The notes under the pieces are model-generated. The model was not told where the DNA came from and made no database searches. It was given only the letters and a program-made list of their open reading frames with translations. Below, piece by piece: positions 46 to 10,313 of a stretch of DNA of 27,525 bases; the stretch's first letter is position 1; every line of letters starts with the position of its first letter. Origin of the DNA: a virus; the IMG/VR virus record IMGVR_UViG_3300014933_000058, positions 1-27,525 of that record, one strand, 5' to 3'. The position numbers and the translations under genes were made by a program.

Positions 46-219
46 CCTTTAGGTAGCAGGGCTGTATTTGGCAGTTGCTACTTGTTAGGTGGAAAGCCGC
101 AAAAACCCTAACTTACTGCATCCTACATTGGCGGCTTAACGCCCTTAAATAAGGTGAGGCGGCAGGACTCCGTGATGTATGGTTGTGCAAAGGGGAAAGC
201 ACACCTACCGCCTCTTGAA
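46..219 (+). ncRNA. Hairpin-rich element, possible structured RNA (copy 1)
   Basis: No gene is seen between the adapter and the stop codon of the leftward exonuclease gene. The stretch folds into several local stems: GTAGCA/TGCTAC (53-58 with 76-81), GTTAGG/CCTAAC (84-89 with 107-112), GGCG/CGCC (about 130-142), TGTGC/GCACA (about 184-203) and an enclosing GAGGCGG/CCGCCTC (about 156-214). The order hairpin, 4-nt linker, TAGGTGG-AAGC hairpin, GGCGG..TTAA also occurs on the same strand at 3252-3335. I do not recognise the family. Strand is assigned only by that similarity. Because the element touches the contig end it may be truncated. Confidence 0.35.
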
Positions 220-966
220 TTAGTTTAACCCAGTTTTTAATTTGTAAATTTTCAATAAAGCCAAAAACATTTCATAGCCATTACGAAGGTCTTGCTCTTT
301 ATGCTCGTATATAGCAACCTCGCCAGTTTCGCCATTAATGTAGACATTGGCGCACCGTGCTGTAGGGGCTAAAACCTCTCTGTAGGCTGCTAATTGTAGG
401 GTATGCTCTAGGTAGGGTGTTAAATCACCAGGGCTTTTTTCTGTCGTTTTAAAGTCGATTACTACCCCAGCGAAGTCATGCTTTGGCTTGCAATAAAGGT
501 CACATTTACCGCCATAGCCTTCTTGATTGACTAGGCTCTGCTCTGCAATCCATAGCTGTGCCCCAAAATGAGCCGTTATAGCCTCATCTACCTTACGGAC
601 ATAGTCAGGTATTGCTGGTAAGTATTCTTGGGCGTAAAAGCTCTCTAAGAAGTCGTGTATTTGAGTACCCCTAGCCATAGCGTCTTGGGACTTTCTTTTA
701 GACAACTCCATGCAACGAGCTATGTAGTCTTTTTCTTCTTCACCTTCTTGGCGTGGATTTTCAATACAGGCTTTAATAGCCTCGCCTTGCAACCACGAAT
801 TAAGGCCATCCTTAGAAAGCTGTCCATTAATGGTGGACACAGACGGCACTAAAGTACCTGGCGCTGCTTTGGCATCACGCAAGGTTACTGACCGTTCCTT
901 GCCGTTTTTACCAGTCATGGTGTAGCGTGGTGCACCTGTTTTGGCGCAATACCAATGTTGTGACAT
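220..966 (-). CDS. RecB/Cas4-like PD-(D/E)XK exonuclease
   Basis: The 248-aa product looks like a phage recombination exonuclease of the PD-(D/E)XK superfamily. Visible motifs in order are RGTQIH..E (99-108, the His-containing helix of RecB-type nucleases), an acidic residue near E142, GGKCD (152-156), V-I-D-F-K (169-173, the D..DxK catalytic core) and QxxxY (191-195). In this family such nucleases resect double-strand ends to give single strands for an annealing protein. The ERF annealing protein encoded two genes upstream in the same leftward run fits that partnership. The start is supported by AAAGGGG at 972-978. It is the last gene of the operon, followed by the hairpin-rich stretch 46-219. 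The family call is firm; the direction of resection cannot be read from sequence. Confidence 0.85.
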   Translation of the reverse strand: MSQHWYCAKTGAPRYTMTGKNGKERSVTLRDAKAAPGTLVPSVSTINGQLSKDGLNSWLQGEAIKACIENPRQEGEEEKDYIARCMELSKRKSQDAMARGTQIHDFLESFYAQEYLPAIPDYVRKVDEAITAHFGAQLWIAEQSLVNQEGYGGKCDLYCKPKHDFAGVVIDFKTTEKSPGDLTPYLEHTLQLAAYREVLAPTARCANVYINGETGEVAIYEHKEQDLRNGYEMFLALLKIYKLKTGLN

Positions 967-1013
967 ATTTTCCCCTTTGAAAATGTGTAATATATACTAC
1001 ATATATACTAAAT

Positions 1014-1211
1014 TTAATTAAGTAATTCTAAAACTGCATTTCTGTCTGTTTCATTTAAACAACAATCAGCACAGGCTTGTATAACTTCACGAAGTACAGT
1101 AGCTAAGTCATTGACCTCAAATGCTATTAATTGTCTTTCTTCATCTACCCCAAAAGGCTCTGTAGAAATAATGGCTTTGTCGCCAATAACATCTTTGATA
1201 TGACTTAGCAT
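1014..1211 (-). CDS. Small acidic phage protein, function unknown
   Basis: This 65-aa protein is not recognised. It is acidic, with no membrane segment, and ends in a Cys-containing helix-like stretch (QACADCCLNETDR, about residues 46-58). The start is supported by an AGGAG-type SD about 6 nt upstream on the minus strand (CTCCT near 1219). It lies between the 80-aa gene and the exonuclease in the leftward recombination operon, so it may be an accessory factor, but nothing in the sequence shows a specific role. Confidence 0.7.
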   Translation of the reverse strand: MLSHIKDVIGDKAIISTEPFGVDEERQLIAFEVNDLATVLREVIQACADCCLNETDRNAVLELLN

Positions 1212-1220
1212 AACTATCTC

Positions 1221-1463
1221 CTAAAATGGTAAGTCAGAGTCTACAATTTCATCTGACCCTGCTGGTTTAAATGCTTTAGCTTCTTTTTCTTTGCCAATAG
1301 ATACGCTAAAGAATTTCCCTTTAGTGCCTTCTTTAACCCACGCAGATAGGTAATGTTCACGGTTATTGACCATAATGCTGCCTGTATAGTCTGGGTGATT
1401 CTCGGTGGTTTTTCTGTCATTTTTGAATAGCGAACCGCTACCCTCTTTTGGTACATAGGCCAT
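1221..1463 (-). CDS. Small phage protein next to ERF, possible nucleic-acid-binding accessory
   Basis: The 80-aa product begins MAYVPKEGSGSLFKND and has the pattern G-S-L-F-x(n)-Y-x-G-x-I-x(5)-Y-x-L-x-A-W-x(n)-F-x-S-V. This resembles short beta-rich phage proteins often found beside recombination genes. Its start codon overlaps the ERF stop by one base, so the two are probably translationally coupled. The C-terminus is acidic (DEIVDSDLPF), a tail reminiscent of single-strand-binding proteins. The SSB-like role is only an inference from the tail and the neighbours; homology to OB-fold SSBs is not evident. Confidence 0.75.
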   Translation of the reverse strand: MAYVPKEGSGSLFKNDRKTTENHPDYTGSIMVNNREHYLSAWVKEGTKGKFFSVSIGKEKEAKAFKPAGSDEIVDSDLPF

Positions 1464-1891
1464 TAGATTTCCTTTGCTTTTACTACTGGTTTAGGTGACG
1501 AAGCGGCATTACCGTCATCGTCTGCTTGTACTACTCCTACTACTGCTGCTAGGGCATAACGCCTCATGTAAGTTAAAGCTGACCCTGCTCCTTGTGGGTC
1601 TACTTTGCTGACAGGTACAGACATTTCTTGACTAATCCATTCGCCAGAAATATGAGTAAGAATGGTAGTTAAAGACATAGACTTGTCTAAATCGGAATAA
1701 GTCCCAGGGAATTGAGCCACAGCCAGACCATTACTAGCCAATAAATCACGGCAAGCATCCCAAACAGACTCAAGGTCTGCATACTTACTTTTGAAAAAAG
1801 GGTTTGCAGAGTCTTTTTTAGCATGGGTTAGTTTTCCTTGTACTATTGATAGCGCTTTGGCTAAGTTTGCAATGCTTTCAGACTGTTGCAT
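1463..1891 (-). CDS. erf: ERF-family single-strand annealing protein
   Basis: ERF-type recombinases anneal complementary single strands during phage recombination and circularisation. The 142-aa product carries the family hallmarks NPFFKSKYADLESVW (30-44), QGAGSALTYMRRYAL (100-114) and DDDG (124-127). An in-frame ATG exists 40 codons upstream, but I chose the start at 1891 because a perfect GGAGG SD lies just before it and the conserved N-terminal helix begins there. The longer reading would run through the preceding gene in another frame. The gene overlaps the upstream 67-aa gene by 14 bp and the downstream 80-aa gene by 1 bp, so it sits in the middle of a coupled operon with the exonuclease. 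At 142 aa it is short for ERF proteins and looks like little more than the core domain. Confidence 0.9.
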   Translation of the reverse strand: MQQSESIANLAKALSIVQGKLTHAKKDSANPFFKSKYADLESVWDACRDLLASNGLAVAQFPGTYSDLDKSMSLTTILTHISGEWISQEMSVPVSKVDPQGAGSALTYMRRYALAAVVGVVQADDDGNAASSPKPVVKAKEI

Positions 1892-2081
1892 TTTGACCTC
1901 CAAAAACATTACCAAAGTCGTCAAATACGGTTTGTAGTAAGACATTGCGTTTAGGTTTGCCACAAGCTGCACGAATAACATCAATGTCATCCTGTGCCAT
2001 TTCTGTGCCAAATTCCATGTTGTCTAGCGCTATTTCTAAGCGCTCTTCCATTTCCAGCATAAGTTGGTTTAATTCACCCAT
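1878..2081 (-). CDS. First gene of leftward recombination operon, small unknown protein
   Basis: This 67-aa protein has an acidic, helical N-terminus (GELNQLMLEMEERLEIALDN, 2-21) and a C-terminus ending DDFGNVFGGQNATV. It is not recognised. The open frame continues upstream to 2261, but the start at 2081 is chosen because AAGGGG (2088-2093) is well placed, and the longer version would read through the promoter region and add an implausible Tyr/Cys/Val-rich stretch. It overlaps the ERF gene start by 14 bp. Being first after the divergent promoter, it would be made early. Confidence 0.72.
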   Translation of the reverse strand: MGELNQLMLEMEERLEIALDNMEFGTEMAQDDIDVIRAACGKPKRNVLLQTVFDDFGNVFGGQNATV

Positions 2082-2100
2082 TTGAATCCCCTTAAATGGC

Positions 2101-2116
2101 ATAGCGAAATTGCTAT
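2101..2116. promoter_or_regulatory. Candidate operator palindrome
   Basis: ATAGC-N6-GCTAT forms perfect 5-bp arms around GAAATT. It lies between the putative leftward -10 box and the first leftward SD, where a bound repressor would block leftward transcription. The neighbouring Cro-like protein is a natural candidate ligand. No second copy of the site was found nearby, so this is tentative. Confidence 0.4.
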
Positions 2117-2122
2117 ATACGC

Positions 2123-2152
2123 ATATTAACACAAGAAAACAATAAATGTAAA
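2123..2152 (-). promoter_or_regulatory. Putative leftward promoter of the recombination operon
   Basis: Read on the minus strand, TTTACA (2147-2152) is followed after 18 bp by TAATAT (2123-2128). The predicted start of transcription falls in or next to the palindrome at 2101-2116. Boxes are 5/6 and 4/6 matches to sigma-70 consensus, so confidence is moderate. Confidence 0.35.
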
Positions 2153-2154
2153 CT
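2126..2154 (+). promoter_or_regulatory. Putative rightward promoter for the Cro-like gene
   Basis: TTAACA (2126-2131), a 17-bp spacer and TAAACT (2149-2154) form a sigma-70-like promoter pointing at the HTH gene that starts at 2192. It overlaps the leftward promoter almost completely, so polymerase could hardly occupy both at once. Confidence 0.4.
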
Positions 2155-2191
2155 GTATGCAAATAAACAACATTTAAGTTAAACTGCGTGA

Positions 2192-2464
2192 ATGGACAGA
2201 CAATTAAAACTAACCGATACCGCCATAATTGACTTGCTGGGTGGTACTGCAAAGGTAGCAAGAATGTGCAAAGTAGACCCAGCAGCCGTTTCTAATTGGC
2301 GCATCAGAGGAATACCAGCCGACAAATATATGCTACTAGGTGCAAGGATTGAAACTGAAAGTCATGGGCTAGTAACTCGCCAAGATTTGTTTCCTAAAAA
2401 CTTTTGGCTTATATGGCCTGAATTGTTGCCAAAAAACAACGCTTTCATACAAATTGAAGATTAA
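2192..2464 (+). CDS. Cro/YdaS-like helix-turn-helix regulator
   Basis: The 90-aa protein has a compact N-terminal HTH: IIDLLGGTAKVARMCKVDPA followed by AVSNWRIRGIPADK (about residues 12-45). This has the Cro-like pattern in which V-S-N-W-R lies in the recognition helix and is followed by G-I-P. Such proteins act as dimeric DNA-binding repressors. The gene faces the leftward recombination operon across a promoter region with a palindrome, so it probably sets the balance of the two directions. The SD is weak, which suits a low-level regulator. It ends 2 bp before the PP-loop gene and may be cotranscribed with it. No CI-type partner with a peptidase domain is seen. Confidence 0.8.
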   Translation: MDRQLKLTDTAIIDLLGGTAKVARMCKVDPAAVSNWRIRGIPADKYMLLGARIETESHGLVTRQDLFPKNFWLIWPELLPKNNAFIQIED

Positions 2465-2466
2465 AA

Positions 2467-3196
2467 ATGACTAGAGTTGTTTGTTGGTTTTCTTGTGGCG
2501 CTGCTAGTGCGGTAGCCACTAAATTAGCATTAAGTCATTTTAGGGGGGGGGTATGAGGTCATCATAGTTTATACAGAAGTTATTGAAGAACACCCTGACA
2601 ATAAGCGTTTTCTTGCCGATTGCGAAAAATGGTTTGGTCAAAAAATACTAATTTTAGGTAATGACCGTTATGAAAGGTCTATTTATAAGACTTTTGAAAA
2701 ATCAGCTATGAATATTAAAGGTGCAAGCCCATGTACTAGAAAGTTAAAAAAGGATGTTAGACTTAAATTTGAAAAACCTACAGACATTCAAGTATTTGGC
2801 TACACAATGGAAGAACAAGACCGCTATGACCGTTTTCTTGACGCTAACAACATTGACGCTATAGCGCCTTTAATTGACAAAGGGCTTAGTAAAGTAGATT
2901 GCCTGGCAATGCTTCAAAACGCTGGCATAGAGCTTCCAGTTATGTATAAGCTAGGCTACCATAACAACAACTGTATTGGCTGTGTAAAAGGCGGTAAAGG
3001 CTATTGGAATAAGATTAAAGTAGACTTCCCAATACAATTTGACCGCATGGCTAAATTGGAAAGATTTAAAAAACAAACAGTATTAAAAGATGTTTATTTA
3101 GATGAGTTACCTGCTGACGCTGGTAATTACCCACAAGAACAAGACATTCAATGCGGTATCTTTTGCCACATGGCAGAAGAAGATTTAAAGATGTAG
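2467..3196 (+). CDS. PAPS-reductase-like PP-loop protein, frameshifted at a G9 tract
   Basis: Reading from ATG 2467 gives MTRVVCWFSCGAASAVATKL, with the SCGAASA loop typical of phage PAPS-reductase/DndC-like PP-loop proteins. The frame stops at 2554-2556, just after nine Gs (2543-2551). One G fewer joins it seamlessly to YEVIIVYTEVIEEHPDN and the rest, giving 242 aa. The C-terminal part holds SPCTRKLKKD and a CIGC motif followed by GGKGYWNKI, possible metal or thiol residues of this family. Family members activate a substrate as an adenylate for sulfur chemistry or nucleotide modification; the substrate here is unknown. The break may be a sequencing error, a phase-variable tract or a true mutation. 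If the break is real, re-initiation at ATG 2708 would give a 162-aa product lacking the PP-loop. Confidence 0.8.
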
Positions 3197-3207
3197 TACA
3201 CTCACTT

Positions 3208-3411
3208 TCCTATCTCGAGGCTCTAACGACATACCAGGGGATAGGATTAACAGCGCTACTGGGGGTAATGGTTGAAACAGCGCAATATAGGTGGCGAAGC
3301 TAGTGCCTATACCATGAACGACTGGCGGGTTAAGCGATTCCTCATTGGAAAACTTATGAAGGCTACCTAGGTAGGGCTAGGTACGCTCAAACCTCTTGGA
3401 AGTGGTTTTTT
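3208..3411 (+). ncRNA. Hairpin-rich element with terminator, possible structured RNA (copy 2)
   Basis: This lies in the gene-free stretch 3197-3501. Stems seen in order are TCCTATC/GATAGGA (3208-3214 with 3240-3246), GCGCT/AGCGC (3253-3257 with 3279-3283), TATAGG/CCTATA (3286-3291 with 3306-3311), and TACCTAG/CTAGGTA (3364-3370 with 3377-3383). The last stem is followed by a terminator-like hairpin with a T-tract. There is no open frame of note. A run of local helices closing with a terminator suggests an independent small RNA rather than spacer. The middle part shares hairpin order and motifs with 53-140. It is not recognisable as tRNA, tmRNA, RNase P RNA or a known riboswitch. Confidence 0.4.
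3389..3411 (+). terminator. Rho-independent terminator
   Basis: AAACC-t-CTT/AAG-t-GGTTT forms an interrupted stem running straight into six Ts. It would end rightward transcription from the PP-loop gene or the structured element, separating them from the next operon at 3502. Confidence 0.55.
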
Positions 3412-9590: not shown

Positions 9591-9767
9591 CTATGCTTTT
9601 TTCATCATGTGCTTTAAAGATAGACAGGCCATGCCAATATGATTAGGGGGCTTTTGAGCCTTTGTTTCCCATCTGGTATATGTAACCCTATGCACCCCCA
9701 AAAGCCTCGCAGCGCTCGATTGTGTAAGCCCTAGCCCTATCCTCCATTGTAGAAGGTTATATTCCAT
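9591..9767 (-). CDS. Minimal XRE-type HTH regulator
   Basis: The 58-aa product is little more than one helix-turn-helix: LLQWRIGLGLTQSSAARLLG (5-24), then VHRVTYTRWETKAQKPP (25-41). LTQ..AA..LGV....Y.RWE is the XRE/Cro pattern, with Q on the first helix and RWE in the recognition part. A longer reading to 9818 would run through a terminator hairpin, so 9767 is chosen, with GGAG at 9774-9777. It lies downstream of that terminator, which suggests expression depends on read-through or a local promoter. It likely regulates a nearby promoter as a dimer. Confidence 0.8.
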   Translation of the reverse strand: MEYNLLQWRIGLGLTQSSAARLLGVHRVTYTRWETKAQKPPNHIGMACLSLKHMMKKA

Positions 9768-9779
9768 AAAATGCTCCGC

Positions 9780-9804
9780 AAAAAGAAAAGGGGGCGAACC
9801 CCCC
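9780..9804 (-). terminator. Leftward terminator abutting the XRE gene SD
   Basis: On the minus strand GGGGG-TTCG-CCCCC is followed by TTTTCTTTTT. The T-tract (9780-9789) ends 2 bp before the GGAG ribosome site of the HTH gene. It would stop transcripts from the leftward genes above unless read through. Confidence 0.75.
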
Positions 9805-9824
9805 TCATGGTTAATCAATAGTGC

Positions 9825-10076
9825 TTAATACTCTAGCCCTGCCATATCCATCATGGCGCATTGATTAGCAATCATAAGAGTACGCATAGCCTTGAGAGCA
9901 TTTCGCACTTGGTACTTGCTAAAGTCGTCTTTTTCCATGTCGGCTAAGATGAACTGTAAGATAGAAAACATATTGTCATAGTCTTCATAGGCCTCATAGA
10001 TTGCATAGGCATAAATATCCTCTTTAGCCATAGGCTTAAACTTGGTCTTTTTTGGTTTTACTGTGGTTTCTGTCAT
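9825..10076 (-). CDS. Small phage protein, function unknown
   Basis: The 83-aa protein starts with a basic stretch (ETTVKPKKTKFKPMAKED) and continues with a helical, acidic body (YAYAIYEAYEDYDNMFSILQ, about 22-41), ending CAMMDMAGLEY. It has no recognised motif. AAGGGG at 10085-10090 supports the start. It is the last gene before the leftward terminator at 9780-9804. Confidence 0.7.
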   Translation of the reverse strand: MTETTVKPKKTKFKPMAKEDIYAYAIYEAYEDYDNMFSILQFILADMEKDDFSKYQVRNALKAMRTLMIANQCAMMDMAGLEY

Positions 10077-10088
10077 GGTTTATTCCCC

Positions 10089-10313
10089 TTAATTGTTTAA
10101 ATAAAACTGAACATACTTTTTAACTTCATTCAAAGACTTAAAATTGAAATGCCCTAATAAGTCCCCTTGGCTATCAGTTACGGCATAAGTCCAAGCGCTA
10201 TGGTCAAAAACAAAGGTATAGACCTCATCTTTAAACTCCATTTGCCCATCTTTAGCCTTTGCAGCCATACCCCTAGCTTTGTTTAAAAGCCTGTCACTTA
10301 TGATTGTTTGCAT
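10089..10313 (-). CDS. Small phage protein, function unknown
   Basis: The 74-aa protein starts MQTIISDRLLNKARGMAAKA. The rest suggests a small alpha/beta fold with strands around EVYTFVFDHS and AWTYAVTDSQGDLLGHF, ending in a helix SLNEVKKYVQFYL. The longer frame to 10391 is rejected because AAAGGA sits just upstream of ATG 10313 and the extra part overlaps another gene. It is 3 bp downstream of the 54-aa gene. Function is not recognised. Confidence 0.68.
   Translation of the reverse strand: MQTIISDRLLNKARGMAAKAKDGQMEFKDEVYTFVFDHSAWTYAVTDSQGDLLGHFNFKSLNEVKKYVQFYLNN

Follow-up and report, generated by a model that had tools for sequence, protein, structure and literature searches.

The window analysed here (27,525 bases; IMG/VR virus record IMGVR_UViG_3300014933_000058) is part of a lambda/P22-like, freshwater bacterial virus and holds two unrelated structured RNAs, which would be carried on two divergent early transcripts. 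One, an 86-nucleotide (nt) pseudoknotted RNA read from the minus strand behind an exonuclease gene, forms a new RNA family without an entry in Rfam 15; the other, on the plus strand, is the already-catalogued Betaproteobacteria-1 RNA (RF02932). We call them copy 1 and copy 2 after an initial annotation that had taken 53-140 and 3252-3335 for two plus-strand copies of one RNA. Both stretches are non-coding, as had been stated, and functional structured RNAs are present at both places, but they are not two same-strand copies of one RNA.

Read 5' to 3' from 144 to 59, the sequence of copy 1 is GGGC GUUAA GCCGC CAA UGUA GGAU GCAGU AA GUUAGG GUUUUU GCGGC UUUCCA CCUAAC AAGUAGCA ACUGC CAAA UACA GCCC, which forms four nested helices and a fold-back pseudoknot, with 24 base pairs in five helices (Table 1). 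Relatives were fetched via the neighbouring exonuclease gene and via a DNA pattern; they are not independent events, and the E-values of our home-made models are rough. Among 57 distinct sequences, pairing holds in 99.9% of cells (one pair in one sequence) and 10 pairs have changes on both sides. With distant relatives included, 97.7% of the cells of 67 sequences are paired and the both-side, compensatory changes extend to 20 of the 24 pairs. None of 500 shuffles reached the count of pairs with both-side changes, sliding the partner by 1-3 columns lowers the pairing to 26-49%, and relatives fetched with a distant exonuclease and found with a copy 1 model (R2) give the same structural picture.

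The strand was decided by the wobble pairs. On the minus strand, the cells of the 57 distinct sequences comprise 1339 Watson-Crick pairs, 27 G.U pairs, 2 others and 0 A.C; since those 27 G.U pairs would be A.C mismatches on the plus strand, the functional strand of copy 1 is the minus strand. The 150 distinct sequences of a larger set give 89 G.U against 6 A.C on the minus strand, a ratio that a plus-strand RNA would reverse. The existence and the strand of the copy 1 RNA are beyond serious doubt, and its structure is secure.

The pseudoknot J/J' is paired in 750 of 750 cells in the same 150 sequences (734 Watson-Crick, 16 G.U, 0 unpaired), through the variants GCCGC/GCGGC, GCCAC/GUGGC, UGGGG/CCCCA, CGGGG/CCCCG, CUGGA/UCCAG and UUAGC/GCUAA; J was absent from the models used for fitting alignments A2 and A3, so the fitting did not favour it. 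The predicted fold is compact, the loop of the inner hairpin pairing back with the 5' side beside the closing helix. Several unpaired segments, GUUAA, AGGAU, UUUU, UUUC and CAAAU, are near-invariant in the 150 sequences.

Table 1. Features of the window discussed in the text (w/, paired with).
Feature	Position	Strand	Remark
Copy 1, uncatalogued 86-nt pseudoknotted RNA	59-144 (5'-3' from 144 to 59)	-	covariation in relatives
Closing helix P1, GGGC/GCCC	141-144 w/ 59-62	-	
Helix P2, UGUA/UACA	124-127 w/ 63-66	-	sides co-change in relatives, e.g. L010, L022, L024
Helix P3, GCAGU/ACUGC	115-119 w/ 71-75	-	
Hairpin i of copy 1, arms GUUAGG (5')/CCUAAC (3')	107-112 w/ 84-89	-	
Pseudoknot strand J, GCCGC	131-135 w/ 96-100	-	close to P1
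Pseudoknot strand J', GCGGC	96-100	-	inside hairpin i loop; pairs with J
Element 3, variable hairpin GAGGCGG...CCGCCUC	157-215	-	between exonuclease stop and copy 1
PD-(D/E)XK exonuclease gene	220-966	-	Pfam PF12705, PHROG 298; copy 1 just downstream in nearly all relatives
Single-strand DNA-binding protein (SSB) gene	1221-1463	-	PHROG 18154; Erf/exonuclease operon
Erf single-strand DNA-annealing protein gene	1463-1897	-	PF04404, PHROG 2324; same operon as SSB and exonuclease
Cro/YdaS-like regulator gene	2192-2464	+	PF15943, PHROG 8008; first gene of rightward early operon
Copy 2, Betaproteobacteria-1 RNA (RF02932)	3207-3330	+	cmscan, 95.7 bits, E 5.1e-17, model positions 1-120 of 120
Stem k, AUGGU (P2 loop)/ACCAU (segment after i')	3268-3272 w/ 3311-3315	+	93% paired in own RNA, 31% swapped
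Stem i of copy 2, AUAGG/CCUAU	3287-3291 w/ 3306-3310	+	pseudoknot; 'second hairpin' of the initial annotation; 89% own, 23% swapped
Stem j, GCUAGU/ACUGGC	3299-3304 w/ 3321-3326	+	drawn in Rfam model
Conserved 3' domain past Rfam model	3327-3411	+	~75 nt conserved
P4 helix of 3' domain	3330-3334/3353-3357	+	91% own, 23% swapped
P6 hairpin of 3' domain	about 3362-3371/3377-3386	+	84% own, 64% swapped
Direct-repeat segments R1/R2 of 3' domain	about 3339-3352/about 3391-3403	+	

Several of the elements read earlier can be placed in these structures. The pairings GTTAGG/CCTAAC (84-89/107-112), GCGCT/AGCGC and TATAGG/CCTATA are backed by relatives, the first being hairpin i of copy 1 seen from the wrong strand as a second hairpin. 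GTAGCA/TGCTAC, which had been given as the first hairpin of copy 1, does not survive the comparison: its outer arm (53-58) lies in unconserved flank, and of the 123 distinct combinations of arms in relatives just 10 form all six pairs. The stretch 3252-3335 is the second half of the RF02932 RNA, and each stretch contains a pseudoknot built partly from pieces already listed (GCCGC...GCGGC; GCTAGT...ACTGGC).

That the two stretches are related plus-strand copies of one RNA has next to no chance of being right, even though the strings TAGGTGG, AAGC and GGCGG..TTAA are common to both. The functional strands are opposite, and neither RNA's model matches the other: RF02932 gives no match to copy 1 on either strand at E<=10, and copy 1 model R1, run over 91 loci bearing RF02932, picks up no RF02932 element, returning, besides genuine copy 1 RNAs, no more than a handful of weak matches with E of at least 0.18. 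TAGGTGG, which had been taken as the link, occurs 5 times on the plus strand of the window against 3.2 expected, and 5 is reached in 23 of 100 shuffles; the likeness of the two places is thus one of chance. The combined pattern TAGGTGG N3-8 AAGC has no occurrence. The strand test and the absence of cross-matches together rule out two copies of one RNA, and the compensatory change that had been seen between them is likewise not confirmed.

Copy 1 has no match of weight among 4227 Rfam 15 families, even with only 186 bases searched; the sole match is to SgrS (6.5 bits, E 9.1), and no Rfam ribozyme or riboswitch model matches at E<=10. A twister-like reading starting from CCUAAC..ACUGCCAAAU was rejected as resemblance alone, without a model match. 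The earlier statement that no known class could be matched is therefore right for copy 1 and wrong for copy 2, and our literature search found no paper naming RF02932 or the motif as an RNA. Copy 1 is present in 197 loci of viral contigs (some loci share a contig), gives no convincing blastn match among 50,697 records of cultured phages, and is absent from 300 genomes of Burkholderiales, the host order and that of an Ottowia genome (G015) in our set; in the positive control for that search, copy 1 was recovered in 5 of 5 phage records.

The gene nearest upstream of copy 1 is on the same strand in 97 of 103 loci and is mostly the exonuclease, in sense and 1-190 nt away; in two loci (L202 and L248) copy 1 begins 1 nt past the exonuclease stop. 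A further 47 loci, fetched by the distant exonuclease, have copy 1 in full or nearly so, and in L129 and L179 it stands directly behind another gene, still in sense at a 3' end. Neither flank is conserved. Within 25 nt downstream, T5 runs are found in 70 of 147 distinct flanks and A5 in 7. In several relatives a clear promoter follows, and then the next gene; an example of such a promoter, of sigma70 type, is TTGACA-17-TAAACT in L088.

Some side observations concern the same region. Element 3, at 157-215 on the minus strand and in the same place in relatives, has the recurring words CUUUCCCC / GGGGGAAAGC and UCACGG, and a tRNA-Asn gene takes its place in L074, L075 and L139. Some 20-45 nt downstream of copy 1 in L088, L106, L132 and others, just before the next promoter, there is a short inverted repeat of the type TAGGG-N4/5-CCCTA, perhaps a phage operator. 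In L117 a separate opposite-strand open reading frame (9693-10190), possibly for an HNH-type endonuclease and probably an insertion, lies between a SprT-like gene and copy 1.

What copy 1 does can be approached from its position and its U-run, which together suggest a role at the 3' end of the recombination message. We tentatively favour such a role in cis, without regarding it as established: copy 1 would be transcribed as the last part of the leftward mRNA for Erf, SSB and exonuclease, around its 3' end, and its knotted fold, just before the U-run, would make or protect the 3' end and thereby, through stabilisation, set the lifetime of the recombination mRNA. Several observations weigh against this. 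The 3' flank of the window's own copy 1 is without a U-run, and the conserved fold is not what a single-sequence minimum-energy prediction without pseudoknots gives. A hairpin-like element 3 precedes copy 1 in many phages, and the message may end there, earlier than copy 1. The near-invariant unpaired bases suggest a site for binding or catalysis, and so more than a plain 3' end or terminator. In L110, L118 and L144, finally, a terminator and a TATACT-like box stand in front of copy 1, an arrangement expected of a free-standing gene.

These last loci also fit a free-standing small RNA that acts in trans by binding to a protein or an RNA of the host or the phage, for which the place behind the exonuclease would be a site of transcription or processing only. 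The conserved unpaired bases, the retention of copy 1 behind another gene (L129 and L179) and the lack of conservation in both flanks all agree with such an RNA; the strong tie to one gene position speaks against it, as does the finding of no conserved promoter just upstream of copy 1 in the main groups, and we consider it a possibility that deserves attention, if a somewhat doubtful one. It is quite improbable, in our view, that copy 1 is an undescribed catalytic or ligand-binding RNA, a self-cleaving ribozyme or riboswitch-like aptamer. Its small closed core, near-invariant loops, internal fold-back pseudoknot and variable P1 may recall several small ribozymes, and the lack of a match to Rfam ribozymes or riboswitches would be expected of an undescribed one; however, no conserved cleavage-site neighbour was found, and the variable downstream genes fit a riboswitch poorly. 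A decoy or packaged RNA, as had also been proposed, finds no support in this sequence-based analysis.

Turning to copy 2, its assignment to RF02932 is well above the curated gathering cut-off of the family (49.4 bits), and the conserved core GGUGGCGAAGCUAG.GCC is present together with all three stems of the model, as seen in the alignment to the model and in 94 distinct relatives. The RNA is nonetheless more than its model. We compared pairing within each RNA with pairing after the arms had been exchanged between RNAs, using 97 distinct relatives for stems i and k (Table 1, own and swapped values). Both stems are paired far more often within their own RNA and cross the Rfam stems, giving linked pseudoknots. 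A pairing between P2 and the loop of P1 ('m') is visible by eye and poorly set apart from chance in the same test (85% vs 70%).

Past the end of the Rfam model, a conserved 3' domain contains the helix P4, the hairpin P6 and a direct repeat; a helix P5 (GUGG/CCAC) proposed for the same part is unsupported in the swap test (42% vs 39%). The repeat, R1/R2, differs between phages and is kept identical within each RNA (86 loci), the two segments sharing at least 7 consecutive bases in 47% of RNAs, compared with 5% after swapping, and no pairing partner for it was found inside the RF02932 RNA. The sequence AACCTCTTGGAAGTGGTTTTTT (3390-3411), which had been read as the terminator ending copy 2, is terminator-like, but its 3' arm is not retained in close relatives.

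Copy 2 is more widely distributed than copy 1, being found in phages and in genomes of Burkholderiales and Rhodocyclales (7 of the 300 Burkholderiales genomes searched); plasmids gave no match. It has the sense orientation within early operons, and in 86 loci the genes on either side share its strand. Often it follows a Cro-like gene at a distance of about 150-160 nt or comes directly after a primase-like gene, and PAPS-reductase-like genes also often precede it (gene types read from the sequences); the setting in Acidovorax phage AP1 is the same. In the window, copy 2 lies within the rightward (cro) operon, in the sense orientation. Since this early-operon place is that of nutR or put in other phages, copy 2 might be a cis-acting antitermination element of the early rightward operon. 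The sense position with co-stranded neighbours and the frequent Cro-like or primase-like gene in front, in phage AP1 as elsewhere, are consistent with this, whereas known nut and put sites are far smaller than an RNA of about 200 nt and less complex, and copy 2 lies ~1 kb inside the operon in some phages; we therefore think such a role somewhat unlikely.

A broader proposal takes both RNAs together. Copy 1 would be the founding example of a class of small phage RNAs, new to description and built around a pseudoknot, with an activity of its own (catalysis, ligand or protein binding) and a link to recombination. RF02932 would be a ~200-nt RNA in which the pseudoknots are linked and a direct repeat covaries, a hint of some novel guide- or exchange-type pairing. 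We find this combined proposal unlikely.

The layout of the early region is lambda/P22-like, with a leftward Erf-SSB-exonuclease operon and a rightward operon opening with a Cro/YdaS-like gene; copy 1 lies in the former and copy 2 in the latter, which places the two RNAs on two divergent predicted transcripts. Promoter-like sites are found between the two operons at a frequency no higher than in shuffles, and no tRNA or tmRNA was found anywhere in the window. At 2544-2552 a G run, explicable by a sequencing error or by slippage at this site, disrupts the frame of a PAPS-reductase-like gene that is intact in close relatives (about 242-248 amino acids). From general knowledge we take 13-45 on the plus strand to be a Nextera transposase adapter (sequencing contamination), and the 12 bases 5' of it are probably adapter or barcode as well; true phage sequence thus starts at ~46, and copy 1 is at the contig edge.

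Copy 1 adds to the known RNAs a well-supported family that Rfam 15 lacks. One of its five covarying helices is a pseudoknot, it is linked to a freshwater phage recombination operon, and its size suits direct structure work and tests of activity. For RF02932, the missing 3' domain and the unmodelled pseudoknots mean that the catalogued model is part of the molecule, and functional studies built on the current model would be misled.

Compared with known systems, copy 2 is like the Betaproteobacteria-1 RNA in fitting the whole model, with the hairpins in the same order and a score above the curated cut-off; it differs in running ~75 conserved nt past the model and in stems i and k, which link the hairpins as pseudoknots, while the printed structure of the model, with which alone we compared it, is three plain hairpins. 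Like HK022 put and lambda nut, copy 2 is a structured RNA in sense in early operons and near cro; unlike them, it is about 200 nt long, and its sequence is unrelated as far as known. Copy 1 resembles the twister and pistol ribozymes, in a works-like comparison from general knowledge, in being compact and in having a terminal loop that pairs back with bases adjoining the closing helix; it differs from them in its pairing order and conserved bases, and no Rfam ribozyme matches it at E<=10. The sib retroregulator of lambda lies behind int and is a simple hairpin cleaved by RNase III. Copy 1 is like it, again judged from general knowledge, as a structured element behind an early recombination gene, with leftward-operon read-through, and its sense position behind such a gene is the one that a sib-like element would occupy; unlike sib, copy 1 folds into a pseudoknot, its loops are invariant, and the gene in front of it is an exonuclease.

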